Shown here: positions 892 through 44,157 of the stretch, one piece after another | How the letters are laid out: every line of letters begins with the position of its first letter | Position numbering within the stretch: the stretch's first letter is position 1 | Assembly: GCF_000003815.2 (NCBI RefSeq) | Contig: NC_049994.1 | Location: 531,910-595,909, forward strand | DNA length: 64,000 nt | Direction: 5' to 3' | Source: Branchiostoma floridae | Taxonomy: Eukaryota > Chordata > Leptocardii > Amphioxiformes > Branchiostomatidae | The notes under the pieces: generated by a model | What the model was told of the DNA's origin: nothing | The model's database searches: none | The model's input: the letters and a program-made list of their open reading frames with translations, nothing else | Position numbers and translations under genes: made by a program

Positions 892-2218
892 AGTCAGGGC
901 AATGACCCTAATTAACGCAGGTGTAGAAGGCCTAAAACGAGTCCATATTTTAGCCTATTTTCTACTTGTAGCAGGAAAATGTATTAAAGAAACATTTCAT
1001 ATTGGTGAGACAGTGTAGGTTGCAGATGATCAGATTCGGCAAAAAAACTAGGTTTTGGTCGATCTTTTCGGCCTGTGCTGATCCCTAATTTGAAGTGGTC
1101 AGTCCCTAAAATGACGTCATGACAAAGTAAGATGGCGGCAGTTTTGACCGCTGGGATATGTTAAGCTGATCAGAAAGTTTTAAAATTGGACACTTGAGGT
1201 AGCGGGCTGCTGTGTGGAGTGAGTTCTTATGACCTGGAATGTTCATGGATGAAATTATGACACCCTGAACTTGCTAATTTTACATTATCGCCAATGAAGA
1301 TTTCTATAAGTGTTCACTGCCCTTCAAAGAGTGCCGTACTCATTTTCTATGGAAAAGGGAAAATGACCTTTCTTATTTGTGAAAATCATTGCCATCTGCA
1401 TATATTGCAACAAAGGGTCGTATTAAATCATGCATGCAGAAAACTTAATAAAGGATATTATAGCTTATCGTAAACCAAGCAAAAAATGTTGAAAATCATG
1501 ACTTCGTATATGATTAATGTGAGACCATTTCCAAGTCAAGGCATTGTCTGAGATATGAGCCAAGATGGTCATTCTTACCGATTTTCTGTTAGCTAGTGAC
1601 TATGAGTATGTTAATACCCTATTGTCACTTACTGTAAATCATTATCTGTAGAGGCATTTCGTATGTAATTCTCTTTGAAGATGAAAGAAAAAATCTTGAA
1701 AATCATGCACGGTGATTTCGCATTCCATATTATATGTAGCAAAGTAATGCGGTATTACATTACTAGTAGTAGTACCAGTGTTTTATGGATATTTGCTCAA
1801 GAAGAACTTGCGATACCACAAAAGCTAATAATGACTATAGACAAGATATCAATATAGACAGGATATCTAGCTTTTGACTCTTCGTTATAAACCCGTTTTG
1901 CTTAGCTTGGGATAGGTCTGCTTTATCCATGCTAATTCATGGTGTATAAATTTGAACTTCTTCTTATTATTCGTGCATAATCATCATATAATGAAAAGGT
2001 ATACTTATGTAGTTCGCACATTGAACATTGAACATGCTTGCATTATATATTATACTGCGTCATCCATATGGTATTGCAGCACTATTGCTCAAAGTCTGAC
2101 AAGTTTTTTTATCGTATTTATGTTTGTCAGAGTAAACAAACCTGTGTAGTATATTATTGTTGAATTTAAGTCACAACCACAAAAAAATTAACATGCTTAC
2201 ACCAATCGCTTATTCACT
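892..2218. other. Intergenic and 3' flank of the sugar transporter
   Basis: AT-rich DNA with short ORFs that show no recognisable domain, splice pattern or codon bias. It presumably contains the 3' UTR of the transporter in its first few hundred bases. I see no RNA gene or repeat here. Confidence 0.5.
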
Positions 2219-2290
2219 AGTGTACTGTAAATGCAGAAATGTTCGCGGAGGATTAATGTTCGTGGTTTTCGCGTTGTAGCTCTTTGCTAT
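2219..2290 (+). mobile_element. MITE end fragment (ACTGTAAATGCAGAAATG family)
   Basis: The sequence GTACTGTAAATGCAGAAATG followed by TTCGCGG-AGGATTAATGTTCG and TTTTCGCG is the left end of a palindromic family seen in fuller form at 56669-56878 and 57720-57920. Only the left arm is present here. No coding capacity; a non-autonomous DNA transposon remnant is the likely origin. Confidence 0.6.
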
Positions 2291-2423
2291 ACGTAGGCTG
2301 AGTGTTACCTGTATGGCCAAACCGGACCCACCTTCTATTTGCATGCAGCCACTTTTATGTCACTGTATTGGAAGTACCCCGGGACTTCACGCAACTGGGA
2401 ATCAATTCAAATTCATACACAAC

Positions 2424-2960
2424 TAGAGTTCGGCGACCTCATACCTCCATCAAATATCTAGAGCTTTTGTAAATTTTATGCAAATAACTTATACATTTAC
2501 ATTATTTATGCATGGTGATGTTCATCATTGACTAACGTACGCATGTCGCAAGTATAAAATTCTCATCATTAGTCATTAAGCGGATTTGCTATTTTTGTAT
2601 ATATATTATGCAAATCAGTTCGCCATTTGCATATTTGGTATCTGCTTATGTTTCACCTATCATAACTTACATGTGTAACATTTACTGAACTTCACTTATT
2701 GTAAACAATGGAATTATACAATTTCATCATTAATTATGCAAATTAAGTCTTCATTTGCATAAAATGTATATCATTTTGAACATATTTACCTAAGCTACCA
2801 ACATGCCTAAAATGATGGCAATCCCTAGGCCCTCATTCCTTTCTGCTGTTATCCTCTTTGGAATGTCTTGAAAAAAATGCCCCTGCAGTTCCAAACTTAG
2901 ATGTTAGGGGGTTGAAACTTGCCCCACTTTGTCATGACGCTGATCGCTACTTACCACCCA
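2424..2960 (+). repeat. Dispersed repeat (ACTAGAGTT / ATACCTCCAT family), diverged copy
   Basis: It opens with ACTAGAGTTCGGCGACCTC and ATACCTCCATCAAA, continues with AT-rich DNA carrying many TGCAAAT/ATTTGCAT words, and ends in a segment (from about 2815) that reappears on the minus strand near 49260-49350. Related copies lie at 56948-57668 and 63588-63953. No conserved ORF is visible, so this looks like a non-autonomous interspersed element. Confidence 0.55.
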
Positions 2961-3795
2961 AATGTCAAGACCATACCTTGTCCTGTCATACATAACCAAT
3001 TGGTAGAGCAAACAAAAAGTTGTCATTTTTTGGCTACCGTTGATAGAGGAATCACACAGATTTATGTGACTGGTAAGTGTCATATACTGAACGAATTGAT
3101 TTTTTGCTAAAAGACTGGACCTAGAATGTAAGACACTCACAATGAGCCGCTCACAGCGTGTATCATTTTATCGATGGTGAAAGATTTTGTGATTATATGT
3201 TTATGATTTAATAGCCTAAAGGCAGTGCACCGGGTATGCTAATACAACAGTATCTATTACCGAAAGAGACGCTTCCGTCTCACGGACCAAAAGTGATCTT
3301 AAAACAACTGTTGGCTGGAATATAAGGTGATAAGTGATTCATGTCGTAGTTTTTTCTATGTACGTCGCATGGGTGTTACGACATGAGTCGGTCTGTCGGC
3401 AGTATGGTATACGTGTTAATATTCATAAAACGCTGATTGTGCAAAGCAGAACCTCGTTACCTTACCGCGAACTGTTGCAGTTCTAGCTGACATTGCTAAG
3501 TGTCGCTCTTGACCCACGAGAAGAAAGCATCTTTACACTCAGTAGTAGACCGTTGCAGCTATAGAAAGGACTCCTTGGTAGCATTTTGACTCATGAAAAT
3601 TAAGGTTTAATGAAAGAAGACATGCATTTTACCTAATTTTCAAAAAGCGTTCAGGATCTAAAGGGCATTGGAGTACGTGAGATGGGCCAAGTTGAAGTTG
3701 ATCAATGTTTGGAGGGATGAACTTTTGATGTGGAACTATGTTGGCTTCCTTCTATTGACGAGGGGAAGAGCCTTTTTCCAGTGACGTGCTATTGA
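2961..3795. other. Intergenic, nothing recognised
   Basis: About 835 bases between two interspersed repeats. Only short ORFs in several frames, no domain, no RNA gene and no clear tandem structure. Confidence 0.4.
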
Positions 3796-4284
3796 TGGGA
3801 GATCGCGTGGTGCAGAGGCAGCGTGTTTGCCTTGGGACCGAGAGGTCTCGAGTTCGAATCCGGCTGCGTGTCACCGATCTTGTGCCCTTGGGAAAGGCAC
3901 TTTACACGGCGTTCTTCACTTTACACTCAGGTAAAAATGAGTATTTAGCTTCGGCTAGGGCCGTCCCTCGGATTGGATGTCCCGTGTCTGGGGAGAGCCA
4001 TACCCCAGGCACGTTAAAGGACCCACCACACGTGCGATTGTACGGTGTGAGTGGTTCAAAACCTACAGTCCCTGGCCGCACCTGGGGCAGTTACTGTCGT
4101 ATTGAGGTCATTAGGCGCTGTATACAGGCTGTCATTTCAGACCCTTGCGACTTACTCCTGCCTATTGTAAGCTTCTCGAAATTCAGCCACTGGCTACGAA
4201 GAGAGAGTAGTTGGCCCATACAATACAATACAATACAATACAATACAATACAATACAATACAATACAATACAATACAATACAAT
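3796..4284 (+). mobile_element. tRNA-derived SINE with (CAATA)n tail
   Basis: A tRNA-like head carries an A box (TGGTGCAGAGG, 3808-3818) and a B box (GAGTTCGAATCC, 3850-3861), the RNA polymerase III internal promoter. It is followed by a roughly 330-base body with GGCACTTTACACGGCGTTC and GGCACGTTAAAGGACC, then a tail of about 13 CAATA units (4219-4284). This head-body-tail layout is diagnostic of a SINE. The body may match one of the conserved SINE core domains known from deuterostomes and other animals, which I cannot decide from memory. An ORF runs through it, but this is incidental. Confidence 0.85.
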
Positions 4285-4285
4285 T

Positions 4286-4381
4286 ATGTCACAAAGGGGA
4301 GTGCTCAGATCACACAGGGACCTCTTGTCTGCCATGAGCGACAGGGATATCTGGAGGGACCAGATGGATGAACTAAACTGA
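4286..4381 (+). pseudogene. C-terminal remnant of a LINE ORF2-like protein
   Basis: Directly after the SINE tail, one frame reads SHRDLLSAMSDRDIWRDQM then DELN and a TGA at 4379-4381. The pattern of Arg-Asp, M-x-D-R-x-x-W-R near the end resembles the extreme C-termini of non-LTR retrotransposon ORF2 proteins. Only about 31 codons are present. It could be the 3' part of a partner LINE or the site into which the SINE inserted. Confidence 0.35.
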
Positions 4382-5227
4382 CTAGATCACACGCGAAATC
4401 CCTGAATATACAGGCAGGGATGCTATCAGGACAGGGGCTCTTGTAGGGGTTAGTGGCTCGTAGGTTTGTGTAAACACCCCAGAGGGCCGGTGTGACCCTC
4501 TGTGTCAAGGCCGGTGTGACCCTCTTTGGTAGGAATGATGGGACAGATGACAGCCCAAGCGGAGGCAGGGACTGGGACACATTCACGAATCCCGCAACAT
4601 TTGACGAAGATTAAGTAGGTAACAAGAAATGCTTTTAAAAAAAGCTGGCAAGGCAGCCTCAAATGTTGAGAATACAACGGTGGGAGAGGGTAGTTTATGA
4701 ACGACTGGAAATGCAGACTGTTATAGGTAGCCACACTGGTAGAGTATGGTTAATCGTGTGGAAGTGAAGACTTTGGCACAGTGCACTAGTGGTAATCAAT
4801 CGATAATTTGGCACAGTGAAAATCAATTGAGTTGAAGTGCAGAGTTGAAAGGAATCTGTTTTATGCTCGGATTGAGTGTTGACTTGAGTTTAATTTATGA
4901 TAGAAAGCTGCAATGCTTCGAAAAATTCCATTTGTGTTATTGTAACTTCTTTTAATGTAAAAGTAGAGAAAAACACACTAAGGATACTGCATTAATTTGA
5001 TTAAAGAATGAAATGAGATCAACAAGGACTTGTATAGTGGAATCATTTTCTTTCCTTTTCTTTTCATCTTTAATGATAAGTCTATAGGAACAAAAGCGTG
5101 CAAGATGTGTGAAAGTTAGTTGTGATTAGAATTGTCTAGTAGCCATTTTGTGAAAAGCGACAGCACAAATTTTCCTTAATTTCATGCGATATACTGGTAC
5201 TAAATAAGCTGCATATACACAGTGAGA
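4382..5227. other. Intergenic with a short direct duplication
   Basis: Contains two adjacent copies of GGCCGGTGTGACCCTCT (about 4485-4525). The remainder is AT-rich with no recognisable gene. Confidence 0.45.
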
Positions 5228-5290
5228 TGCATATGTTGGTAATAATTCAAAGGTGAAGCCCTCACCTTTGCATTATTACCAACATATGCA
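5228..5290. repeat. 29-bp inverted repeat with 5-nt loop (hairpin)
   Basis: Left arm 5228-5256 starts TGCATATGTTGGTAATAATT; right arm 5262-5290 is its reverse complement with one mismatch; the loop is AGCCC (5257-5261). The stem is far longer than expected by chance. GC-rich shorter palindromic words (TTCACCGTGAA) follow within 40 bases. It may be a MITE remnant, a folded RNA or a cruciform-forming site. Confidence 0.85.
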
Positions 5291-5841
5291 TGAAGGGACC
5301 TTCACCGCCACCTTCACCGTGAAGGGCCCCTTCGTTCAGTCGAGGACATCATCATCTCAGATGTCAACACGGGAAGGCCCCTACTATAAACAATTCGCTT
5401 TCATGTTCCAGACAACAGTTGTCCTGGTTTTTTTTTTGTTTCGTCCTTGCTATCAACTTCCAAATAATACCCATAATGAATATTGCTGTGCATGCACAAT
5501 ATCAACCGTACACTGGCTTAAGATTTTGTGAACTACAGGCCGCCATATGCAAAATGTCATGCCATGCGAGTACTCCGTCCCCCGCTAAGTATTTCTTAAA
5601 GTAAGATTTATAACTTGCCAAGGATCATCTTCTAAGCAATAATATGAACCTTTGCTGTACAATAAAATAAAAAGCTTTAACTTCATAAACTCAGGTGTGA
5701 GGCCTACATTTTCGTCAAGTGCTATATATCATTTATTCTCTTGGATGATGGTTATATCTCCAAAACGAGACTATACAGAACTGAAACCGAGCTACAAGTA
5801 ACACGTAAAAAAGGACAATGGAACAGAAGAAAGCACATTTA

Positions 5842-6045
5842 AGTACTCTCCAAGCAGAGGTTAGGCTCCAGCTGTTTTTTTAACGTTTTTTTTAGTCGTT
5901 TTTATCGGGCTTTCTATTTTGTTATTTTTTTCTGTCCGGCTCCAAGCAGAGGTTAGGCTCCGGCTGTTTTTTTAACGTTTTTTAGTCGTTTTTATCGGGC
6001 TTTCTATTTTGTCATTTTTTTTGTTGTGTCCGGCCTAACACAAGG
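5842..6045 (+). repeat. Two-copy tandem duplication of about 97 bp
   Basis: Both copies carry AGCAGAGGTTAGGCTCC, then TTTAACGTTTTT, AGTCGTTTTTATCGGGC and TTTCTATTTTGT. They differ by a few substitutions and T-run lengths. No coding potential. Confidence 0.8.
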
Positions 6046-6094
6046 CTGTTTTTGGACGCGCCTCCAGGGCGGAACCAATAGCTTAGTGTAGGAT

Positions 6095-6140
6095 CAAGGA
6101 GGTTGAAAATACAGGTATAGATGTAGTTTTAACCTCCTTG
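6095..6140. repeat. Short palindrome (CAAGGAGGTT / AACCTCCTTG)
   Basis: CAAGGAGGTTGAAAA (6095-6109) and TTTTAACCTCCTTG (6127-6140) are inverted copies separated by 17 bases. The same word recurs near 14700, which suggests a small dispersed MITE. Confidence 0.5.
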
Positions 6141-6794
6141 GTAGGATTCACATTGAAAAAAATCCCATCTTTGAATTTCTCAGACAATTCTTCTTTGGCA
6201 ATACTTCGTGATCGTGGTGTTTGCACAAAATGGATTTCTGTATTGAAAATGTTCAATGAATTCCTTCTATGTCTTCCCAAGGGAAGGGATTGGTGTATCT
6301 ATTTTTCGGCGGCCTCCCGAATTCGTCCGGAAACGTACGTGAACTAGATATCCAGCATTCGTACTTCCGGGGCAGTCAATTATGGTGATTGACAGGACAG
6401 AAAACAGTAATTATGCACGCCCGTGTTTCCATATTTGGTTCGACCTCGAAAGACTTCGCGAGACTCTAGATACCAAGACGCCACGGGACTTGTTTGTGAT
6501 CCCAGATTGGACTCTGTCTCAGGGATAAAAACAACATCTTAGATAGAGCAAACAGTGAAACACGTAGCCAGAATTTGTCCATAAAGCCGGCGACCTATCT
6601 ATATATGTTTATACGATCACAAATATTTAACCCGGAAGTGACCGCTGCTCTCCCCATAAATTAGGAGACATCGCCCCGGGCTAAGAAAATTGTCATTCCG
6701 TTCATATCACGTGTGAACTAAAGTAGCATTATTTTCTTACATCAAATTTATTAATTAAACCCACGCGTTCTATCCAAATAACGCAGTTTCAGAG

Positions 6795-9969: not shown

Positions 9970-10089
9970 AACGTCACCAGGGAGGCGAAAAAATCATTGT
10001 TCAATACCATAGCAACCACACAGTCCGTTTGAAACTGTTCCTAATGTCTACAAATGGACTTCTTGCTTAGCTTAGGTTGTCGGGACACC

Positions 10090-10392
10090 ATGTGGAGACA
10101 GCTGCAGCAACTGCTGATTTTCCTTCTCATCATCCTGAAGGAGCCCAACCTGCAAGTAGATGGCTGTTGGGGGTCAACTCCTAAAGCCGACTGCAGCTAC
10201 GCACCACGCTGCTATTTCCGCGGTCGTGACCTCACCAGCATCCCTCAAAAGCTCCCCCAATCCATCTGCAGCTTAGATTTGTCAGTTAACAAGATAAAAG
10301 AGATTCCGCCTGGTGCATTTCCAAATCTACCCCGGCTGCAAGAGTTGTACCTGTCAAAAAATCAGATAACGATAATCCGGCCTGGTCTTTAA
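10090..10392 (+). pseudogene. Leucine-rich-repeat protein, N-terminal fragment, frameshifted at a gap edge
   Basis: The start of a secreted or membrane LRR protein. I prefer the ATG at 10090 over 10054 because it opens directly into a signal peptide (MWRQLQQLLIFLLIILK). A cysteine-rich LRR N-cap follows (C at WG, DCSYAPRC, RDLTSIP), then LRR 1 (SLDLSVNKIKEIPPGAF) and LRR 2 (RLQELYLSKNQITIIRPGL). The frame then meets TAA at 10390-10392, yet in the shifted frame the next codons read FKSLI, the expected continuation of an LRR. So one base is missing or the gene is broken, 12 bases before a 100-N gap. Amphioxus genomes carry large LRR expansions (family knowledge). Either a pseudogene or a contig-end sequencing error. 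Confidence 0.7.
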
Positions 10393-13078: not shown

Positions 13079-14915
13079 GTAAAAGTACTAGACTACAGCG
13101 GCGATCGCGTTATAGTTAACACCCGTCAGCGTCAGTGACGCGTCAGAAATCGTCAGTGACGCGTCAGAAATCGTCAGTGACTGGTCAGAAACCGTCAGAC
13201 ATCGTCAGACGCCCGTCAGAATTCGTCAGAGTCAAACGCTGACCAGTCAGCGTCAGCGTTAATGATATGTATGAGATGGGGTCAGGTTTCATGTTTATTT
13301 TGTACCCCGACAAGACAATAGCAATTTTGTCACCTCCTAGTGTGCGAGTTTTCGTTGCGATGTTGCGGCAGGTCGTTGACCCCCGAAATACGCAGCTTAC
13401 GTGGATATGCCACCCTTCTGGGAGGGGAAAGTTGTTAACTTAATAATTGCTCTTCTGAACAGCTTAAATACACACACAAACCTAAAAGGGGTTGGCAATG
13501 ATTAGAGTATGAGTCATTCTTGTTGAAGATTAATTGCTAAAAAAAAATTCAGTGTTGTCTTCTCGAGCCGACTGTGGCCATATTGTTTAAATTTATCACG
13601 TTGTTATTTGGGCTCTAACCGCTCGACCGATCTGAGACTGGGAGGGACTTATATACGGACTTTCAGTGCTTTAGCGACTCATTTCTTAGATCGTTATTTT
13701 CTACGGGTTTCATTTGATAAATGTAAGAAAATGGCATCGTGGTCAATAATGACACCGGGGAAATCGTCTGACACGGCCGGGTACAATCGACATTTTTGAT
13801 CATGCGAAATTTCCAGGTACGGGTGAAGAAAAGCCGGCCTGAGAAACCAATTGTTATATTCTTTAGCAGATAAATGACAGATTTTATCGAGATCGATTCT
13901 TGTCTTGCACTTGTCGGCAAATACCGATATTTTTTGTATTGCTTCAAAAACTCACACATCGACGGGAAACACGTGTAGTTTCCAATTTCCCGAGCCGAAA
14001 CAGTCCGTGCGATTAGAAAAACAGCTCACAAAACTGCGATCTACGTAGTAGCTAAGTGAATACTCGTATATGATTGTAACGCAGTTTGAAAAGCTAGCAA
14101 TGATATCCGATGTTACAAAACTGTGTCAGCGTTTTTATGTATCCACGGAACAAAGAAAAATACGGCAAAATGTAAAGCACAGCGCATGCTAAAAAAGATG
14201 TTGGACCCGAACGTACCTTACGTGTAAACAAACATGAATGCTAGCGGTACAACTTCTCTGCGGGTTCAAACTGCGATTGATTAAGCCGAAGATTTAACTA
14301 AAATTTGTGCACTGTAACAAAAATAGCGAGAACAGTTTGGGATCTGAATGAAACTGAACTATAGATTATACGATTTGATACATCGGCTTCTGATCGCGCG
14401 CGAAACAGCAGCTCCGAGGACGGCCACTACAAATGTACACTCTCCCACGATGCGCGATCTTGATTGACAGATCGCGGTTGTTTGAAGATCGTGCCGCCCG
14501 CGCCGGACTGTCTGAAACTTTGCAGGACGCAAATTCAATCATTTTTGACAGCCAACCAGCAAAGAGGAAAACTGACAGCAAAAATAACTTGATACTTGTC
14601 TATAAATGAGGTTCTGTCGCCGGCGTTCGAAGAACCCCGAAACATGGCTCGCAAAAAATAAACGAAAGACTTGCAGTTCGAAATCTAATACCGGTAAGAC
14701 CAAGGAGGTTACTTGGTAAGACGGAAAATTTGTGGCAACCAGGAACCGGGATAAATCTAAAAGAGGGAAGGGCCCATGCAGAAATAAATGTTTTGTCCAT
14801 CAGACGTGCCCGTCGAAACATTGAATGAGCCAACTGTCTCTTTCTGTCAAATTTATGCATGGTCAACATATCCGATGCTTTATTTAGTACATTACTTGTG
14901 CTCGCAATTATGAGG

Positions 14916-15078
14916 NNNNNNNNNNNNNNNNNNNNNNNNNNNNNNNNNNNNNNNNNNNNNNNNNNNNNNNNNNNNNNNNNNNNNNNNNNNNNNNNNNNNN
15001 NNNNNNNNNNNNNNNNNNNNNNNNNNNNNNNNNNNNNNNNNNNNNNNNNNNNNNNNNNNNNNNNNNNNNNNNNNNNNN
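14916..15078. other. Assembly gap (163 N)
   Basis: A gap inside the candidate 6.2-kb element; ORFs across it are meaningless. Confidence 0.95.
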
Positions 15079-15289
15079 TTAATTAATTAATGTTTTGAGT
15101 AGAGTTACTACTATATGGTTCCTCAAGGCGGTTTTATTAAATCCTTAGAATTTTTGAGTCCATGGCAAACGTGTACAATCATCATCATCTGTGTACAATA
15201 CATTTTACCGCCATGGTAAAGATCACCGTAATTACGATAAGTTGATTATTAATTAGACATCATTAGCTACTATTGTAGGCTAGGAATTT

Positions 15290-26213: not shown

Positions 26214-26313
26214 NNNNNNNNNNNNNNNNNNNNNNNNNNNNNNNNNNNNNNNNNNNNNNNNNNNNNNNNNNNNNNNNNNNNNNNNNNNNNNNNNNNNNNN
26301 NNNNNNNNNNNNN
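26214..26313. other. Assembly gap (100 N) between STAT 3' UTR and satellite block
   Basis: The satellite block starts directly at the right edge of this gap, 136 bases after the STAT stop codon plus the gap. Confidence 0.95.
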
Positions 26314-27222
26314 CGTAGTAAGCGCAGAACGGCTGAAAAGGGCCTAAATCTTATGTTTTGAGCGAAATTATCGTGACTAATGCATTACCAATGGCATTTT
26401 TTCAAAACTTTTTTTTCACGTTCTGACACTTTTATAAGGTGAAATACACTTAGTAGACATGTTTAGAATCAAAAAGAAAAATCTTTGATCAAAACTCGAT
26501 TTTTAATGGCAAAGTTCGTAGTAAGCGCAGAACGGCTGAAAAGGGCCTAAATCTTATGTTTTGAGCGAAATTATCGTGTCTAATGCATTACCAATGGCAT
26601 TTTTTCAAACCTTTTTTTTTCACGTTCTGACACTTTTATAAGGTGAACTACACTCAGTAGACATGTTTACAATCAAAAAGAAAAAATCTTTGATCAATGT
26701 CCGATTTGTAATGGCAAAGTACGTAGTAAGCGCAGAACGGCTGAAAAGGGCCTATATCTTATGTTTTGAGCAAAGTTCTCGTGTCCCATGCATTACATAT
26801 GGCATTTTTTCAAGACTTTTTTCCCACGTTCTGACACTTTCCTAAGGTGAACTACACTCAGTAGACATGTTTACAATCAAAAAGAAAAATCTTTGATCAA
26901 TGTCCGATTTGTAATGGCAAAGTACGTAGTAAGCGCAGAACGGCTGAAAAGGGCCTATATCTTATGTTTTGAGCAAAGTTCTCGTGTCCCATGCATTACA
27001 TATGGCATTTTTTCAAGACTTTTTTTTCCACGTTCTGACACTTTCCTAAGGTGAACTACACTCAGTAGACATGTTTACAATCAAAAAGAAAAATCTTTGA
27101 TCAATGTCCGATTTGTAATGGCAAAGTACGTAGTAAGCGCAGAACGGCAGAAAAGGGCCTATATCTTATGTTTTGAGCAAAGTTCTCGTGTCCCATGCAT
27201 TACATATGGCATTTTTTCAAGA
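26314..27222 (+). repeat. Satellite A array (~204-bp unit)
   Basis: About 4.4 units, each starting CGTAGTAAGCGCAGAACGG, with ATCTTATGTTTTGAGC, GCATTAC, CACGTTCTGACACTTT and AATCAAAAAGAAAAATCTTT. It switches abruptly to satellite B inside a unit at about 27223. Confidence 0.92.
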
Positions 27223-28823
27223 CTTAGCCGTAAGTCAGGGGTAGGGTGATGCCTTAAATACACGATTACGAGTGAGGGTTGAAGTTGCGGCTCGGTAGGT
27301 TTTAACTCATTGGAAAGGTCTCTTTGCGCGCTATTGGAAGATGAAAACTGCTTGCCAATCGAATGCTTTCTTGAGGAGATAATCTCGATCGTATGGACTC
27401 TAGTCGTGGCATAACGACTAGTCTTATCCATAAGTCAGGGGTAGGGTGATGACTTAATAACGCGATTCCAAGTTTACGGTTCAAGTTGCGGCCGGGCAAG
27501 TTTAATATTATTCAAGAGGTCACTTTGCGCGCTATTGGAAGATGATAACCGCTTCCCAATCGCATACATCCTTGCCGAGATAATCTCGATCTTATGGACT
27601 CTAGTCATGGCATAACGGCTAGTCTTAGCCGTAAGTCTGGGGTAGGGTGATGCCTTAATAACGCGATTTCAAGTGAGGGTTCAAGTTACGGCCGGGCAAA
27701 CTAGATATCATTCAAATGGTGTCTTTGCGCGCTATTGGAAGATGAAAACCGCTTGCTAATCGCATACATCCTTGGCGAGATAATCTCGATCGTATGGACT
27801 CTTGTCATGGCATAACGGCTAGTCTTAGCCGAAAGTCAGGGGTAGGGTAATGCCTTAATAACGCGATTCCAAGTTAGGGTTCAAGTTGCGGCCGGGCAAA
27901 CTTTATATCATTCAAAGGGTGTCTTTGCGAGCTATTGAAAGATGAAACCCGCTCGCCAATTGGATGCTAACTTTCCGAGATAACCTCGATCGTATGGACT
28001 CTAGTCGTGGCATAACCGCTAGTCTTATCCATAAGTCAGGGGTAGGGTGATGACTTAAAAATGCGATTCCAAGTTACGGTTCATGTTGCGGCCGGGCAAA
28101 TTTTATATCATTCAAGAGGTCACTTTGTGCACTGTTGGAAGATGAAAACCGCTTGCCAATCGCATACATCCTTGCCGAGATAATCTCGATCGTATGGACT
28201 CTAGTCGTGGCAAAATGGCTAGTCTTAGCCGAAAGTCAGGGGTAGGGTTATGTCTTAATAACGCGATTCCAAGTGAGGGTTCAAGTTGCAGCCGGGCAAA
28301 CTTTATATCATTCAAAGGGTCTCTTTGCGCGGTATTTTAAGATGAAAACCGTTTGCCAATCGGATACGCCGAGATAATCTCGATCGAATGAACTCTAGTC
28401 GTGGCAAAGCCGTGCCTGCCTTGGCCGGAAGTCAGGGGTAGGGTGATACCTTAATAAGGTGATTCCAAGTGAGGGTTCAAGTTGCGGCCGGGCAAAGTTT
28501 ATATCATTCGATAGGTCTCTTTGCGAGCTATGGAAAGATGAAAACCGCTTGCCAATCGGATGCTTCCTTGCCTAGATAATCTCGATCGTATGGACTCTAG
28601 TCGTGGCATAACGGCTAGTCTTAGCTGTACGTTAGGGGTAGGGTGATACCTTAATAACGCGATTCCAAGTTAGGGTTCAAGTTGCGACCGAACAAACTTT
28701 ACATCATTCGAAAGGTCTCTTTGTGCGCTATTGGAAGATGAAAACCGCTTGCCAATCGGATGCTTCCTTGCCGAGATAATCTCGATCGTATAGACTCTAG
28801 TCGTGGCATAACGGCTAGTTTTA
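27223..28823 (+). repeat. Satellite B array (~200-bp unit)
   Basis: Eight units marked by AGTCAGGGGTAGGGTGATG, CTTAATAACGCGATTCCAAG, GGAAGATGAAAACCGCTTG and the 13-bp palindrome CGAGATAATCTCG. Frames through the array are not genes. Related in reverse orientation to satellite D. Confidence 0.92.
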
Positions 28824-29705
28824 TGGAGCCAGTTTTACAAGGGTGGCCCTATAGCGGACTAAGATTTTTCCTTCGGTGACGTGAACCAATTGTATACGTT
28901 CAAAAGTGCATATATCATAGAGCTGGCTCCTTGAAACGTGTTTTTCGTTTACAAGGGGCGGACCCATAGCGGACTAAGATTTTTCCTGTGGTGACGAGAA
29001 CCAATTTTATACATTCAAATGTGCATAGTGCTGGCTCCATGAAACTTGTTTTTCGTTTACAAGGGCAGCCCCAAAGCGAACTAAGATTTTTTCTGTGGTG
29101 ACGTGAACCAATTGTATACATTTAAAAGTGCATATAGCATAGAGCTAGCTCCATGAAACGTGTTTTTCGTTTACAAGGGTGGCCCTATAACAGGCTAAGA
29201 TTTTTCCTGTGGTGACGTGAACAAATTGTATACATTCAAAGTGCAAAGAGCTGGCTCCATGAAACTTGTTTTTCGTTTACAAGGGCGGCCCCATAGCGGA
29301 CTAAGATTTTTCCTGTGGTGACGTGAACCAATTGTATACATTCAAAGTGCATATAGCATAGAGCTGGCTCCATGAAACTTGTTTTTCGTTTACAAGGGCC
29401 GCCCCATAGCGGACTAAGATTTTTCCTGTGGTGACGAGAACCAATTCGTAAGTATTCAAAGTGCATAGAGCTGGCTCCATGAAACTTTTTTTCGTTTACA
29501 ATGGCGGCCCCATAGCGGACTAAGATTTTCCTGTGGTGACGTGAACCAATTGTATACATTCAAAAGTGCATATAGCATAAAGCTGGCTCCATGAAACTTG
29601 TTTTTCGTTTACAAGGGCGGCCCTATAGCGAACTAAGATTTTTCCTGTGGTGACAAGAACCAATCGTATGTATTCAAAGTGCATAGAGCTGGCTCCATTA
29701 AACTT
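28824..29705 (+). repeat. Satellite C array (~105-117-bp unit)
   Basis: Eight units with TTTTTCGTTTACAAGGG, AGCGGACTAAGATTTTTCC, TGTGGTGACGTGAACCAATT and GAGCTGGCTCCATGAAACTT. Longer and shorter units tend to alternate according to the presence of ATATAGCATA. Confidence 0.9.
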
Positions 29706-32664
29706 GCTCCTTGAGCTTGCTTGGCGGAACTTAAAGCCTAAGCTACAATTGCGCTATTAACTGCCTACCCGGTACTGTGACAGGTGGTGTTTCCAAAAGG
29801 TAGCTAGAGGTTGCGCCCAAATAGAGTCCGTATACTCAAGAATATCTCAACAAGGAAGTATCGGATTGGACTGCAGTTTTCATCATTCAATTCCTTACTA
29901 GGAGACCTTTCCAAGCATACCAAGCTTGCTAGGCCGGAACTTAAAGCCTAAACTACAATTGCGTGATAAAGTCCCTACCCGGTACCGTGACAGGTGGTGT
30001 TTCCAAAAGGTAGCTAGAGGTTGCGCCCAAATAGAATCCGTATACTCAAGAATATCTTTCATGAATAAATAAAGGTTCAAACAAACAAATAAATCTCCAC
30101 GAGGAAGTATCGGATTGGAATGCGGTTTTCATCTTTCGATTCCTTATTAAGAGACCTTTCCAACCATACCAAGCTTGCTAGGCGGAACTTAAAGCCTAAG
30201 CTACAATTGCGTTATTAAGTCCCTACCCGGTACCGGCGCTAGGTGGTGTGTCCAAGAGGTAGCTAGCAGTTGCGCCCAAATAGAGTCCGTATACTCAAGA
30301 ATATCTCGACAAGGAAGTATCAAATTAGACTGCGGTTTTCATCTTTCGATTTCTTACTAAGTGACCTTTCCAACCATACCAAGCTGGCTAGGCCGGAACT
30401 TAAAGCCTAAGCTACAATTGCGTTATTAATTGCCTACCCGCGCTAGGTGGTGTGTCCAAGAGGTAGCTAGCAGTTGCGCCAAAATAGAGTCCGTATACTC
30501 AAGAGTATCTCGACAAAGAAGTATCAAATTGGACTGCAGTTTTCATCTTTCGATTCCTTACTAAGAGACCTTTCCTACCATACCAAGCTTGCTAGGCCGG
30601 AACTTCAAGCCTAAGCTACAATTGCGTTATAATTGCCTACCCGTGCCGGTGACCAGGTGGTGTGTCCAAAAGGTAGATAGAGGTTGCGCCAAATAGAGTC
30701 CGTATACTCAAGAATATCTCGACAAGGAAGTATCGGATTGGACTGCGGTTTTCATCTTTCGATTCCTTACTAACGGACCTTTCCAACCATACCAAGCTTG
30801 CTAGGCCGGAACTTAAAGCCTAAGCTACAATTGCGTTATTAACTGCCTACTCGGTACCGTGACAGGCGCTAGGTGGTGTGTCCAAGAGGTAGCTAGCAGT
30901 TGCGCCCAAATAGAGTCAGTATACTCAAGAATATCTCGATAAGGAAGTATCGGATTGGACTGCGATTTTAATCTTTCGATTCCTTACTAAGGGACCTTTC
31001 CAACCATACCAAGCTTGCTAGGCCGGAACTTAAAGCCTTAACTACAATTGCGTTATAAAGTCCCTACCCGGTACCGTGGCAGGTGGTGTTTCCAAAAGGT
31101 AGCTAGCGGTTGCGCCCAAATAGAGTCTGTATACTCAAGANNNNNNNNNNNNNNNNNNNNNNNNNNNNNNNNNNNNNNNNNNNNNNNNNNNNNNNNNNNN
31201 NNNNNNNNNNNNNNNNNNNNNNNNNNNNNNNNNNNNNNNNNNNNNNNNNNNNNNNNNNNNNNNNNNNNNNNNNNNNNNNNNNNNNNNNNNNNNNNNNNNN
31301 NNNNNNNNNNNNNNNNNNNNNNNNNNNNNNNNNNNNNNNNNNNNNNNNNNNNNNNNNNNNNNNNNNNNNNNNNNNNNNNNNNNNNNNNNNNNNNNNNNNN
31401 NNNNNNNNNNNNNNNNNNNNNNNNNNNNNNNNNNNNNNNNNNNNNNNNNTAAAGCCTAAGCTATAATTGCGTTATTAATTCCATACCCGGTACCGGGACA
31501 TGTGGTGTTTCCAAAAGGTAGCTAGGGGATGCGCTGAAATACAATCTGTATACTCAAGAATATCTCGACAAGGAAGTATCGAATTGGACTGCGGTTTTCA
31601 TCTTTCGATTTTTTACTAAGGTACCTTTCCAACCATACCAAGCTTGCTAGGCCGGAACTTAAAGCCTAAGCTACAATTGCGTTATTAATTCCCTACCCGG
31701 TACCGTGACAGGTGGTGTGTCCAAAAGGTAGCTAGAGGTTGCGCCCAAATAGAATCCGTATACTCAAGAATATCTCAACAAGGATGTATCAGATTGGACT
31801 GCCATTTTCATCAATAGATTTCTTACTAAAGTACCTTTCCAACCATACCAAGCTTGCTAGGCCGGAACTTAAAGCCTAAGCTACAATTGCGTTATTAAGA
31901 CCCTACCCGGTACCGTGACAGGTGGTGTTTCCAAAAGGTAGCTAGAGGTTGCGCCCAAATAGAATCCGTATACTCAAGAATATCTCGACAAGGAAGTATC
32001 GGATTGGACTGCGGTTTTCATCATTCGATTTTTTACTAAGGGACCTTTCCAACCATACCAAGCTTGCTAGGCCAGAACTTAGGGCCTAAGCTACAATTGC
32101 GTTATTAATTCCCTACCCGGTACCGTGACAGGTAGTGTGTCCTAAAGGTAGCTCGCTGTTGCGCCCAATAGAGTCCGTATACTAAAGAATATCTCGACAA
32201 GGAAGTATCAGATTGGACTGCGGTTTTCATCATTCGATTTCTTACTAAAGTACCTTTCCAACCATACCAAGCTGGCTAGGAAGGAAATTAAAGCCTAAGC
32301 TATAATTGCGTTATTAAGTCCCTACCCGGTACCGTGACATGTGGTGTTTCCAAAAGGTAGCTAGGGGATGCGCTGAAATACAATCTGTATACTCAAGAAT
32401 ATCTCGACAAGGAAGTATCGGATTGGACTGCGGTTTTCATCTTTCGATTTTTTACTAAGGTACCTTTCCAACCATACCAAGCTTGCTAGGCCGGAACTTA
32501 AAGCCTAAGCTACAATTGCGTTATTAATTCCCTACCCGGTACCGTGACAGGTGGTGTGTCCAAAAGGTAGCTAGCAGTTGCACCCAAATAGAGTCCGTAT
32601 ACTAAAAAATTATATCTCGACAAGGGAGTATCGGATTGGACTGCGCTTTCATCTTTCGATTCCT
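29706..32664 (+). repeat. Satellite D array (~208-bp unit), interrupted by a gap
   Basis: About thirteen visible units with GCCGGAACTTAAAGCCTAAG, CTACAATTGCGTTATTAA, CCCTACCCGGTACCGTGACA and GCGGTTTTCATCTTTCGATT. Unit 2 (about 30058-30097) carries an inserted A-rich tail-like segment. Interrupted by 309 N. Confidence 0.92.
31141..31449. other. Assembly gap (309 N) inside satellite D
   Basis: The flanking sequence is in the same repeat; the gap is likely 1-2 units. Confidence 0.95.
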
Positions 32665-32665
32665 N

Positions 32666-33003
32666 GAAATACACTTAGTAGACATGTTTAGAATCAAAAA
32701 GAAAAATCTTTGATCAAAACTCGATTTTTAATGGCAAAGTTCGTAGTAAGCGCAGAACGGCTGAAAAGGGCCTAAATCTTATGTTTTGAGCGAAATTATC
32801 GTGTCTAATGCATTACCAATGGCATTTTTTCAAAACTTTTTTTTTCACGTTCTGACACTTTTATAAGGTGAAATACACTTAGAAGACATGTTTAGAATCA
32901 AAAAGAAAAATCTTTGATCAAAACTCGATTTTTAATGGCAAAGTTCGTAGTAAGCGCAGAACGGCTGAAAAGGGCCTAAATCTTATGTTTTGAGCGAAAT
33001 TAT
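32666..33003 (+). repeat. Satellite A array, second block
   Basis: About 1.6 units of satellite A begin in mid-unit directly after a single N at 32665, next to satellite D. It ends abruptly at GCGAAATTATC before unique DNA. The single N marks an artificial join. Confidence 0.9.
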
Positions 33004-33069
33004 CGACGCGCCGCCATTTTGTGGGATTGAAACCTTCCCGTCAGTCTGTTCGTGAATCCCGTAAGATTC

Positions 33070-33148
33070 GGATTCATGCTAGGAACATGTCAAAGGAATC
33101 CTTTGAAGGACTAAAGGATTCCTTTACACTGCTACCTAGCATGAATCC
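33070..33148. mobile_element. Small palindromic element
   Basis: GGATTCATGCTAGG (33070-33083) and CCTAGCATGAATCC (33135-33148) are perfect inverted repeats, with a nested pair AAAGGAATCCTTT/AAAGGATTCCTTT. It is in the short unique stretch between satellite A and satellite B. Confidence 0.75.
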
Positions 33149-33189
33149 TATACCAGGATTCCTGGCTTAGTAGAATGAATACTGTATGT

Positions 33190-35040
33190 ATCGGGTGGGG
33201 TTAGGGTGATCCCTTAATAACGCGATTCCAAGTTAGGGTTCAAGTTGCGGCCGGGCAAACTTTATATCATTCGAAAGGTCCCTTTGTGCAATGTTGGAAG
33301 ATGAAAACCGCTTGCCAATCGCATACATCCTTGCCGAGATAATCTCGATCGTATGGACTCTTGTCGTGCCAAAGCCGCTAGTCTTCGCCGTGTCTTAGCC
33401 GTAAGTCAGGGGTAGGGTGATGCCTTAATTACGCGATTCCGAGTGAGGGTTCAAGTTGCGGCCGGCCAAGTTTTATATCATTAGAAAGGTCTCTTTGCGC
33501 GCTATCGGAAGATGAAAACCACTTGCCAATCGGATGCTTCCTTGATGAGATAATCTTGATCAAATGAACTCTAGTCGTGGCAAAGCCGCTCGTCTTCGCC
33601 GTGTCTTAGCCGTAAGTCAAGGTAGGGTGATGCCTTAATAACGCGATTCCGAGTGAGGGTTCAAGTTGCGTCCGGTCAAGTTTAATATCATTCAAGAGGT
33701 CACTTTGCGCCCTATTGGAAGATGAAAACCGCTTGCCAATCGCATACGTCCTTCACGAGATAATCTCGATCGTATGGACTCTTGTCGTGACAAAGCTGCT
33801 AGTATTCGCCGTGTCTTAGCCGTAAGTCGGGGGTAGGGTGATGCCTTAAAAACACGATTACGAGTGAGGGTTGAAGTTGCTGCCGGGTAGGTTTTAACTC
33901 ATTGGAAAAGTCTCTTTGCGCGCTATTGGAAGATGAAAACTGCTTGCCAATCGGATGCTTTCTTGCCGAGATAATCTCGATCGTATGGACTCTAGTCGTG
34001 GCATAACGGCTAGTCTTAGCCGAACGTCAGGGGTAGGGTGATGCCTTAATAACGCGATTCCAAGTGAGGGTTCAAGTTGGGGCCGGGCAAGTTTAATATC
34101 ATTCAAGAGGTGACTTTGCGCGCTGTTGGAAGATGAAAACCGCTTGCCAATCACATACATCCTTGCCGAGATAATCTCGATCGTATGGACTCTAGTCATG
34201 GCATAACGGCTAGTCTTAGCCGAAAGTCAGGGATAGGGTGATGCCTTAATAACGCGATTCCAAGTGATGGTTCAAGTTGCAGCCGGGCGAATTTTATATC
34301 ATTCAAAGGGTCTCTTTGCGAGCTATTGAAAGATGAAAACCACTTGCCAATATGATGCTAACTTGCCGAGATAATCTCGATCGTATGGACTCTAGTCGTG
34401 GCATAACGGCTAGTCTTGGCCGAAAGTCAGGGGTAGGGTGATGCCTTAATAACGCGATTCCAAGTTTACGGTTCAAGTTGCGGCCGGGCAAGTTTAATAT
34501 TATTCAAGAAGTCACTTTGCGCGCTATTGGAAGATGAAAACCGCTTGCCAATCGCATACATCCTTGCCTAGATAATCTCGATCGTATGGACTCAAGTCAT
34601 GGCATAACGGCTAGTCTTAGCCGAAAGTCAGGGATAGGGTGATGCCTTAATAACGCGATTCCAAGTGAGGGTTCAAGGTGCGGTCGGGCAAACTTGATAT
34701 CATTCAAAGGGTCTCTTTGCGAGCTATTGGAAGATGAAAACCACTTGCCAATCGGGTGCTTTTTTGCCGAGATAACCTCGATCGTATGGACTCTAGTCGT
34801 CGCATAACGGCTAGTCTTAACCGTAAGTCAGGGGTAGGGTGATGCCTTAATAACGCGATTCCAAGTTAGGGTTCAAATTGCGGCCGGGCAAACTTTATAT
34901 AATTCAAGAGGTCACTTTGCGCGCTATTGGAAGATGAAAACCACTTGCCAATCGGATGATTTTTTGCCGAGATAACCTCGATCGTATGGACGCTAGTCGT
35001 GGCATAACCGCTAGTCTTATCCATAAGTCAAGGGTAGGGT
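33190..35040 (+). repeat. Satellite B array, second block
   Basis: Nine to ten units of satellite B in the same orientation as 27223-28823. Several units here carry an extra GCTAGTCTTCGCCGTGTC segment before CTTAGCCGTAAG, giving a longer variant of about 210 bp. Confidence 0.92.
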
Positions 35041-35225
35041 TTGTATCTACGTTTCATACATCTATACTTCATACCACAAAGGCATTTACGACATACTAGT
35101 ACGTAGATAAAAACAGGGAGTGGGAGGAGCTAAACGTATGGTCCCTAAAAACTTAAATGCGCGACAAATATATGTGTGCACATCAATATCTTATCACTTT
35201 CCTTCTGTCCATCGGACAAAAAAGC

Positions 35226-35780
35226 ATGCCTCACGTCTGCGACATTTGTGATCGGGAATTTGATCGTGCGTTCAACCTCGAGCGTCATCTGGAAAGAAAA
35301 CACCGAGACAAGTCAGGTGTTGCCTCGGGAGAAGTCGTCGTTGATGCCGAGACCGGGTCTTACCGGGAACGCGATGTTTTTGACGACTCTGACGTGTCAT
35401 CTGAACACGACACGGACACGGTTGGTTCCGAAGATTCGATGGCGTCACAAGATGAAGAAAGCGTCTCAGACGCCAAATCTGTGATGGACTCCGAGCAGGG
35501 AGACTCCACAGAAGAAACCGACAGCGACCAAAGTGGTTCCGAGAGTGATACAGGGACAGATGTGTCCTCCGGGACGGTTTCATCTGATGACAGTGGACGC
35601 ACTGGCTACGACAGCGGCTACCACAACGGTGACGAGGAGGAGTGGACACTCTATCGAGACTGGTCCATCGGACTACCTCACCAGCCAGGCGATGTTCCTC
35701 AAAGTGTCATCAAGCAGACGAAGCGCGCTGGCAAAAAGTTTTATCTAATAGAGTTCGCTGCTTCACCCTACACGCCATAA
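35226..35780 (+). CDS. Single C2H2 zinc-finger protein with long acidic region
   Basis: I prefer the ATG at 35226 to 35157 because the finger begins at once: MPHVCDICDREFDRAFNLER then HLERKH, a complete C2H2 finger (C-x2-C-x12-H-x4-H). About 85 acidic and Ser-rich residues follow (for example DVSSEHDTDTVGSEDSMASQ), then WTLYRDWSIGLPHQPGDVPQ and a basic KQTKRAGKKFYLIEF end with stop TAA 35778-35780. It is a 184-residue, apparently single-exon frame with GC-richer codons than its surroundings, between satellite B and a 653-N gap. One finger plus a long acidic tract is unusual for a host transcription factor. It could be encoded by a mobile element or be the 5' part of a larger gene. Function unknown. 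Confidence 0.65.
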   Translation: MPHVCDICDREFDRAFNLERHLERKHRDKSGVASGEVVVDAETGSYRERDVFDDSDVSSEHDTDTVGSEDSMASQDEESVSDAKSVMDSEQGDSTEETDSDQSGSESDTGTDVSSGTVSSDDSGRTGYDSGYHNGDEEEWTLYRDWSIGLPHQPGDVPQSVIKQTKRAGKKFYLIEFAASPYTP

Positions 35781-42515: not shown

Positions 42516-42639
42516 ACCTACCCTTCTTAGAAATGCAGAACTTGACTGTGGAATAAACAGTTTGTATTGTATATTTCTACCGTATCTTCAGTTGATGCAT
42601 CAACAAACATTTGTTTTACATTTTTCGTTTTGACAAGAC

Positions 42640-44157
42640 TATGACGATATTCCATGTACAAAAATCCCTTGTACTGATAATGTTAAGTATCTGGTATAAG
42701 TTAAGTATTTTAATACTTAAAAGGTTATTTCTAGGACGTTTATCATATTCTTTTATATTAGATTTAATCCACCAACACCGAAAGCATTCAACACCGCTAA
42801 CCATACAATTCTGTTGGAAAAAACTTAACTGCTATTGCTTTCAAGGATATGTTTTCACCTGGTTAAAAGACAATTTATCAAATAGAAAGCAGTATGTTTC
42901 CAATAATACCTACTCCTCAAATACAAGAACAATTTCCTGTGGCGTCCCTCAAGGTTCTATTCTGGGTCCTCTACTATTTCTCATATATATCAACGATCTG
43001 GCTTATGTATCTAATGAACTATATGCACTGTTTTCAGATGACACTAACTTGTTTTCATCACATTCCGATCTTGATAAATTAGTCAGAAAAATGAATAGAG
43101 GATTAGACAAAGTAAACAAATGGTTCCAAGTAAACAAATTATCCTTGTTAAGAAAACAAATTTCATTATTTTTGCAGGGAAGAAAAAAAATACAACAAAG
43201 AAAAGTCTAAAGTAGCTATTAATAACACACCCTTTAATCAAGTAACGCACACGTTTCTTAGGTGTCACAATTGATGACAAACTTACCTGGAAAAAACATA
43301 GACCTTATTTGCCAAAAAATCTATCAAAACATAATAAGTATATAGTTTGCTATATCTTATATCTTGCATATTGTAACGTCGTATGGGCTAGCATATACTC
43401 CACATCACTAAAAGCACTACTTCTTCTGCAGAAACGCCTCGTCTGAATAGTTTCAAATGTGTCGTATGCATTTCCTTCTGCATCTTTGTTTCGTAATCTA
43501 AAAGTAATGACTGTATATGATATAAACAAACTACAAAGCTGTCTTTTCATTCACAAAATAATTCACAATAATCCTTGTGTCCCAAAACAATTTCAGGCTA
43601 TTTTTCATTACAATTCAGACTACCATCAACTTAAAACAGATCCAAGTAAAAACGCAACAACGTTCTCCATGATATTCAAATGCCCGCAAATTTGGAATAA
43701 TTTAAGTCGGGCCTTACAACTTTGCCAATCTTTCCCCAAATTTAAGAACCTGCTAAAAAGTCAATATTAGACAAACAATCATTTAATTAATCTCCTATTG
43801 ATTGTTTTCTATTTCTACATCTTGCTTGCTTTTTTAGTTGTTACATTTCTTCTCTTCTTATGATGAAACGTTCCTTTTCTCAACCGAGTCAGTTATTGAA
43901 CTATTATTATTTCGTTCCTTATTTATCATTTTGTTAATCGGTACCTTGCACTGTGTTATTATCATTGTTTAATGTATGATTTTCATATTCATTCAACCCT
44001 TATTACTCTATGATTTGTTAATTGTATTATGATTTTGTAAATTTTGACGAGGAAGAGCATGTACAAGCCACATGACTTTTTCTCCCCACACCTGCACGTT
44101 TTCTTGCTTCCTTTCATTTGCTTTATGTTTTTGCAAAATCAGTCAATCAATCAATCC
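42640..44157 (+). mobile_element. Decayed non-LTR retrotransposon (LINE), RT and 3' end
   Basis: The frame at 42611-43210 carries reverse-transcriptase blocks in order: FTWLKDNLSNRKQYV, SCGVPQGSILGPLLFLIYIN, a catalytic-site block ALFSDDTNLF (normally F/YADD; here FSDD, altered) and VNKWFQVNKLSL. After frameshifts the C-terminal part is at 43459-43770 (VYDINKLQSCLFIHKIIHNN ... CPQIWNNLSRAL), with stop TAG at 43768-43770. A roughly 380-base AT-rich 3' UTR ends in a (TCAA)n tail near 44140-44157. The 5' end, including the endonuclease, is missing. Clade: Jockey/CR1-like, inferred from the block spacing. Not functional. Confidence 0.8.

Follow-up and report, generated by a model that had tools for sequence, protein, structure and literature searches.

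The DNA considered here is a window of 64,000 nucleotides from the genome of the lancelet Branchiostoma floridae (NC_049994.1, here contig C16, positions 531910-595909), in which satellite DNA occupies nearly all of the interval from 26.3 to 35.0 kb, and the subject of this report is the relationship between two of its satellites, B and D. The block opens with a plus-strand array of satellite A (26314-27222; 204-bp unit), which has a 100-base gap (26214-26313) on its left. It continues with a first array of satellite B (27223-28823, eight 200-bp units, family sense strand plus), an array of satellite C on the plus strand (28824-29706, alternating units of about 106 and 114 bp) and the array of satellite D (29714-32664), whose 210-bp units have their family sense strand on minus and are thus inverted relative to B. 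Spacings of D units range from 204 to 217 bp, with the exceptions of one of 248 bp, due to a short insert, and one of 419 bp, which spans a gap of 309 bases within the array (31141-31449). One D unit carries about 38 additional bases at 30058-30095 (ATAAATAAAGG...AAACAAACAAATAAAT) that resemble a small insertion. A lone N at 32665, likely an assembly join, connects two truncated units, one of D and one of A, so that the right neighbour of D is uncertain. It is followed on the plus strand by a fragment of satellite A (32666-33005), the end of a DNA transposon (33006-33197, terminus ...GTATGTATCGGGTG) that forms a strong hairpin, and a second B array that the transposon end abuts (33198-35040, nine units, the first three spacings being 210-211 bp and the rest 200-201 bp). 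B and D are built from tandem units that run head to tail at an almost constant length, they are non-coding, and no match to a known structured RNA was found in Rfam at an E-value of 0.1 between 26000 and 36000. Among open reading frames of at least 110 codons there is, besides frames filled by gap sequence, one frame of 110 codons from stop to stop within the second B array, which is read as a chance occurrence.

A sequence-only reading of this DNA had proposed that B and D belong to one ancestral family in opposite orientations, and the comparison it suggested, of consensus B with reverse-complemented consensus D, confirms it. The two consensuses (B, 200 bp from 16 units; D, 210 bp from 10 units), aligned globally at the best rotation, match along the entire unit: 141 positions are identical (71% of aligned pairs), 57 are mismatched and 14 columns hold gaps. 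The global score of 134 lies far above what 100 mononucleotide shuffles reach (at most 2, on average -19.4), and local alignment of cruder consensuses built from one or two units gave a score of 80, where the best of 500 dinucleotide shuffles came to 28 (z 25.9). Same-strand comparison of B and D and all other pairings of A, B, C and D stayed at background level in global and local alignments in either orientation, and kinship of A or C with B and D was rejected on these scores. The landmark words listed in the sequence-only reading are shared in register and in order, except that the B consensus has AAATTT where AAACTT had been given. The words are not special: identities are no more clumped than chance allows (P=0.17 for the longest run, P=0.45 for the best 20-column window), B and D share no conserved box beyond chance, and only one 20-column window, at the unit's 3' end in the global alignment, is unusually poor (P=0.006). 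Of the periods that had been proposed, about 208 against 200, the value for B holds while the usual D unit measures 210 bp, and the two arrays described as neighbours are in fact separated by the unrelated satellite C. Mean pairwise identity among the units of the window is 85% within B and 90% within D.

Genome-wide, B and D are parts of a larger family. In the 513 Mb of genome searched there are at least 134 matches for B, 262 for D, 179 for C and 206 for A, those listed for B and D lying on 13 large contigs (C3, C4, C6-C10, C12-C14, C16, C18 and C19) and on C167, C194, C219 and C241. The window B consensus is 97.5% identical to B on C14, 98.0% to B on C4 and 97.0% to B on C10, and the window D consensus agrees at 97.9% with the D of C13 and of C10, while B and D consensuses are 66.8% identical to each other. 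Units are therefore more alike within a subfamily than between subfamilies, as in concerted evolution, and the contrast of 97-98% identity across chromosomes with 67% between local B and D means that homogenisation tracks the subfamily and not the local array. Intermediate forms occur on other contigs (B-like consensuses 83-87% identical to B, D-like 79-82% to D), as does a more distant subfamily with a unit of 183-185 bp on C4 and C10 (L010:1-4212, L009:3564-4625 and L039:2475-3726), so that several subfamilies of common ancestry coexist in one genome. A tree of 303 monomers splits into two deep clades of 166 and 137 (support 0.966/0.962). The split recurs as 189 and 192 (support 0.971/0.93) in a larger tree of 381 monomers, which added seven records, for 28 in total, under a laxer cut-off (489 hits, 108 of them dropped for coverage). 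Block mosaics that are part B-like and part D-like were unconvincing among 16 consensuses (smallest P 0.04, uncorrected). We consider it probable, at roughly 0.8, that B and D are anciently diverged subfamilies of one superfamily with units of about 185-215 bp on many chromosomes, which were joined in inverted orientation in a satellite-rich block that was then copied.

The sequence-only reading had suggested an inversion followed by independent concerted evolution or, alternatively, two founder insertions of one repeat. The first of these, in which part of a single array would have been inverted locally and the two parts then homogenised separately to a difference of about 30%, accounts for the opposite orientation and the full-unit relationship of B and D, and would agree with the opposite orientation of B proper and D proper in all three loci that they share. 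It is nevertheless unlikely and finds no support in the wider comparison, since window D shows 97.9% identity with the D of other chromosomes, against 66.8% with the B nearby, and since B-clade and D-clade monomers lie in the same orientation at four loci. Both clades were found together in seven of the 28 records, in opposite orientation in the window, L009 and L016 and in the same orientation in L019, L020, L022 and L024. Two of the four same-orientation mixtures, L019 and L022, are gap-free (9.9-kb stretch). The clade assigned by the tree agrees with identity to window B or D for 9/9 B-clade and 13/13 D-clade monomers in L019, 2/2 and 6/6 in L020, 3/3 and 9/9 in L022, and 2/3 and 22/22 in L024, where a single B-clade monomer disagrees with its identity to the window consensuses. 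Divergence of the clades therefore did not need an inversion. Also against a local inversion, D is found on both strands of C10, C12 and C194 with similar identity to window D among the matches listed. Two founder insertions come closer to the findings, provided that the founders are taken to have diverged beforehand and their joint block to have been copied afterwards between C16 and C4.

Several points weigh against the view that anciently diverged subfamilies were joined here. B proper and D proper share only three loci, on C16, C4 and C10, always in opposite orientation, and the same-orientation mixtures consist of B-like and D-like relatives; an ancient inversion may therefore have first produced D proper, which then spread. 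Both trees are midpoint-rooted without an outgroup, and the 185-bp subfamily falls on the B side of the 381-monomer tree though its consensus is about equidistant from B (65%) and D (64%). The B-like consensus of C4 includes some units of this 185-bp subfamily, the route by which the B-C-D block was copied is one that we infer, and all evidence comes from one gapped assembly.

The block itself recurs on C4, where L009, read in reverse, presents the transposon end, B, C and D in the order and orientation of the window, with near-identical B/C and C/D junctions. The block was therefore formed once and then copied. The two gaps (26214-26313 and 31141-31449) and the lone N at 32665 might raise the suspicion that the inverted arrangement is an artefact of assembly, but no N interrupts the interval from 27223 to 31140, where B and C are followed by six complete D units and a portion of the next, and C4 shows the same junctions, likewise without N (L033, L041), which leaves this explanation hardly any probability. 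Among the matches listed, C coincides with B and D only on C16 and C4, and L043 carries C without B or D, where it adjoins a hairpin of GGAGCTGGCTCC words. Satellite C is otherwise a dispersed repeat in short arrays on C2, C3, C5, C8, C11, C12, C13, C15, C16 and others. According to the match lists, a mirror-image arrangement of A and C is present in C226:2043-15151, with A on the minus strand (2043-3381) followed within 100 bases by C on the minus strand (3470-6245) and, farther along, C on the plus strand (14012-14454) followed by A on the plus strand (14751-15151).

Stretches that adjoin the arrays are common to three further pairs of loci, L019/L022 (495 bp, 92%), L011/L020 (335 bp, 89%) and L021/L022, and may represent additional copied blocks. 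The first of these, at L019:2384-2878 and L022:7633-8129, adjoins D-like arrays on C3 and C6. Beyond these few pairs, a single carrier element for all arrays was not found, and the unmasked sequence shared by 29 of 210 record pairs was, by inspection, largely unmasked satellite or dispersed repeats.

Foldback-type transposons have termini made of tandem repeats in inverted orientation. B and D resemble them in being inverted tandem repeats, and they could accordingly be thought of as the long inverted ends of such a mobile element with C as its middle. The recurrence of the B-C-D order with near-identical junctions on C4, the transposon end that abuts B both in the window and in the C4 copy, and the array-adjoining stretches shared by the three pairs of loci would fit such an element. 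However, the family, present in all 21 places examined (the window and 20 loci), lies in one orientation in 18 of them and in both in only three, namely the window, L009 on C4 and L016 on C10; the array loci showed no shared outer end; and C, as described above, meets B and D on two contigs only among the matches listed and occurs without them in L043. The abutting transposon end, moreover, is found without B or D in its short flanks on C2, C11, C10 and C1, and the foldback explanation is thus very improbable.

The transposon end is better understood from its own relatives. Its segment 33010-33195 has 56 matches in the genome, inverted pairs of which lie about 4-13 kb apart on C1, C2, C3, C7, C8, C10, C11 and C13. 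Read inward, the terminus is CACCCGATACATAC..., and the hairpin folds far better than shuffled sequences (z -6.7). On C2, GACTT stands on both flanks of one copy, a single case that suggests a 5-bp target duplication. Among seven copies whose short flanks were compared, those on C16, C4 and C3 had a B or D match and those on C2, C11, C10 and C1 had none. The C3 copy was picked because it lies near L019; its right end leads directly into a D-like array, and on its left a gap is followed by family units of the same orientation. Since units of one orientation thus stand on both sides of it, the transposon end of the window is best read as an insertion beside the satellite rather than as the origin of the arrays.

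If B and D are subfamilies that diverged before they met, each would be kept uniform genome-wide by copying or exchange between satellite-rich regions, through unequal or ectopic exchange and possibly via circular DNA, and illegitimate joins where a few bases match would create new neighbours and orientations. The opposite orientation in the window would be one such join of already diverged B, C and D, after which the block would have been copied between chromosomes. At the switch on C10, where B-type meets D-type, the two orientations share AACTTG, and the units involved score low and are of B type and D type, not B and D proper; on C4, a D unit beside the 185-bp subfamily breaks at CAAGCTTGG. 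Both of these gap-free meetings of opposite orientations fall in the short inverted repeat of the unit (CAAGTT...AACTTG, AAGCTT), a hint that the switches might reflect fold-back copying. Across array edges no significant breakpoint hotspot emerged: 9 of 38 edges fall in phase 43-66 of the unit (P 0.08 for this window taken alone, P 0.89 when any window is allowed), so that the role of the palindrome is a hint drawn from two switches. Of 134 edges, 93 had been dropped (61 at gaps or locus ends, 27 at model ends, five low-scoring) and three merged, and the 38 kept include a few of the 185-bp type and one that touches the lone N.

Long arrays of satellite A occur at few places, among the matches listed for example at C12:22.720-22.792, C10:5.709-5.853 and C3:9.046-9.118 Mb. 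On C12, A has minus-strand D on its left and plus-strand D on its right; the right-hand D joins A directly (L037), and the left-hand one is about 150 bases away (L046). The D/A junctions of C12 are not mirror-identical, the roughly 150 unrelated bases on the left standing against the direct join on the right. Elsewhere D lies near A across a gap on C194 (L034), within about 2.4 kb on C10 (L039) and across the lone N in the window. Judged from this arrangement, the long A arrays at C12:22.716-22.794 and C10:5.67-5.85 Mb, accompanied on both strands by adjacent or nearby D arrays, could be candidate centromeres or pericentromeres. That all four satellites together form a (peri)centromere, with A as core, B and D arrays mirrored around it as on C12, and orientation switching as centromere architecture, seems a doubtful extension of this idea. 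Near contig ends (within 1.5 Mb) lie 6 of 9 merged B loci (P 0.0002) and 5 of 8 merged D loci (P 0.001), which is a hint of enrichment in loci that were hand-picked by identity among the matches listed and in which a contig end may be a telomere or a centromere. Centromere coordinates are credited to Huang et al. 2023 in PMC12500494. Satellites with units of about 185, 200, 210 and 215 bp, together with the unrelated 204-bp satellite, would make good probes for lancelet centromeres.

The suprachromosomal families of primate alpha satellite descend from one ancestral monomer, form diverged subfamilies that are uniform across chromosomes, and show orientation switches. B and D share all three traits, in contrast to alpha satellite with many short and dispersed arrays and a centromere role that is only a candidate one. 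The satellite 'library' model describes coexisting variants of a single satellite in concerted evolution, for example in Characidae fish (PMC5557728); B and D likewise appear as such variants, with the difference that the two subfamilies here are inverted relative to each other and separated by an unrelated satellite. B and D thus seem to be an ordinary kind of satellite DNA and not the trace of a local inversion. Among the papers listed in searches for lancelet or amphioxus satellites and centromeres, none describes the B/D family in its title or abstract opening. Neighbouring inverted satellites can mislead, as local comparison points to an inversion and whole-genome comparison to old subfamilies brought together.

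Outside the satellite block, the window holds a few further features. Soon after the second B array, at 35157-35780, an open frame combines an acidic stretch with one C2H2 zinc finger (Pfam E-value 7e-5, 23.5 bits, under the cut-off of 25.2). A fragment of a reverse transcriptase (RVT_1) lies at 42596-43210, and a leucine-rich-repeat coding stretch (LRR_8) is located at 10045-10392.

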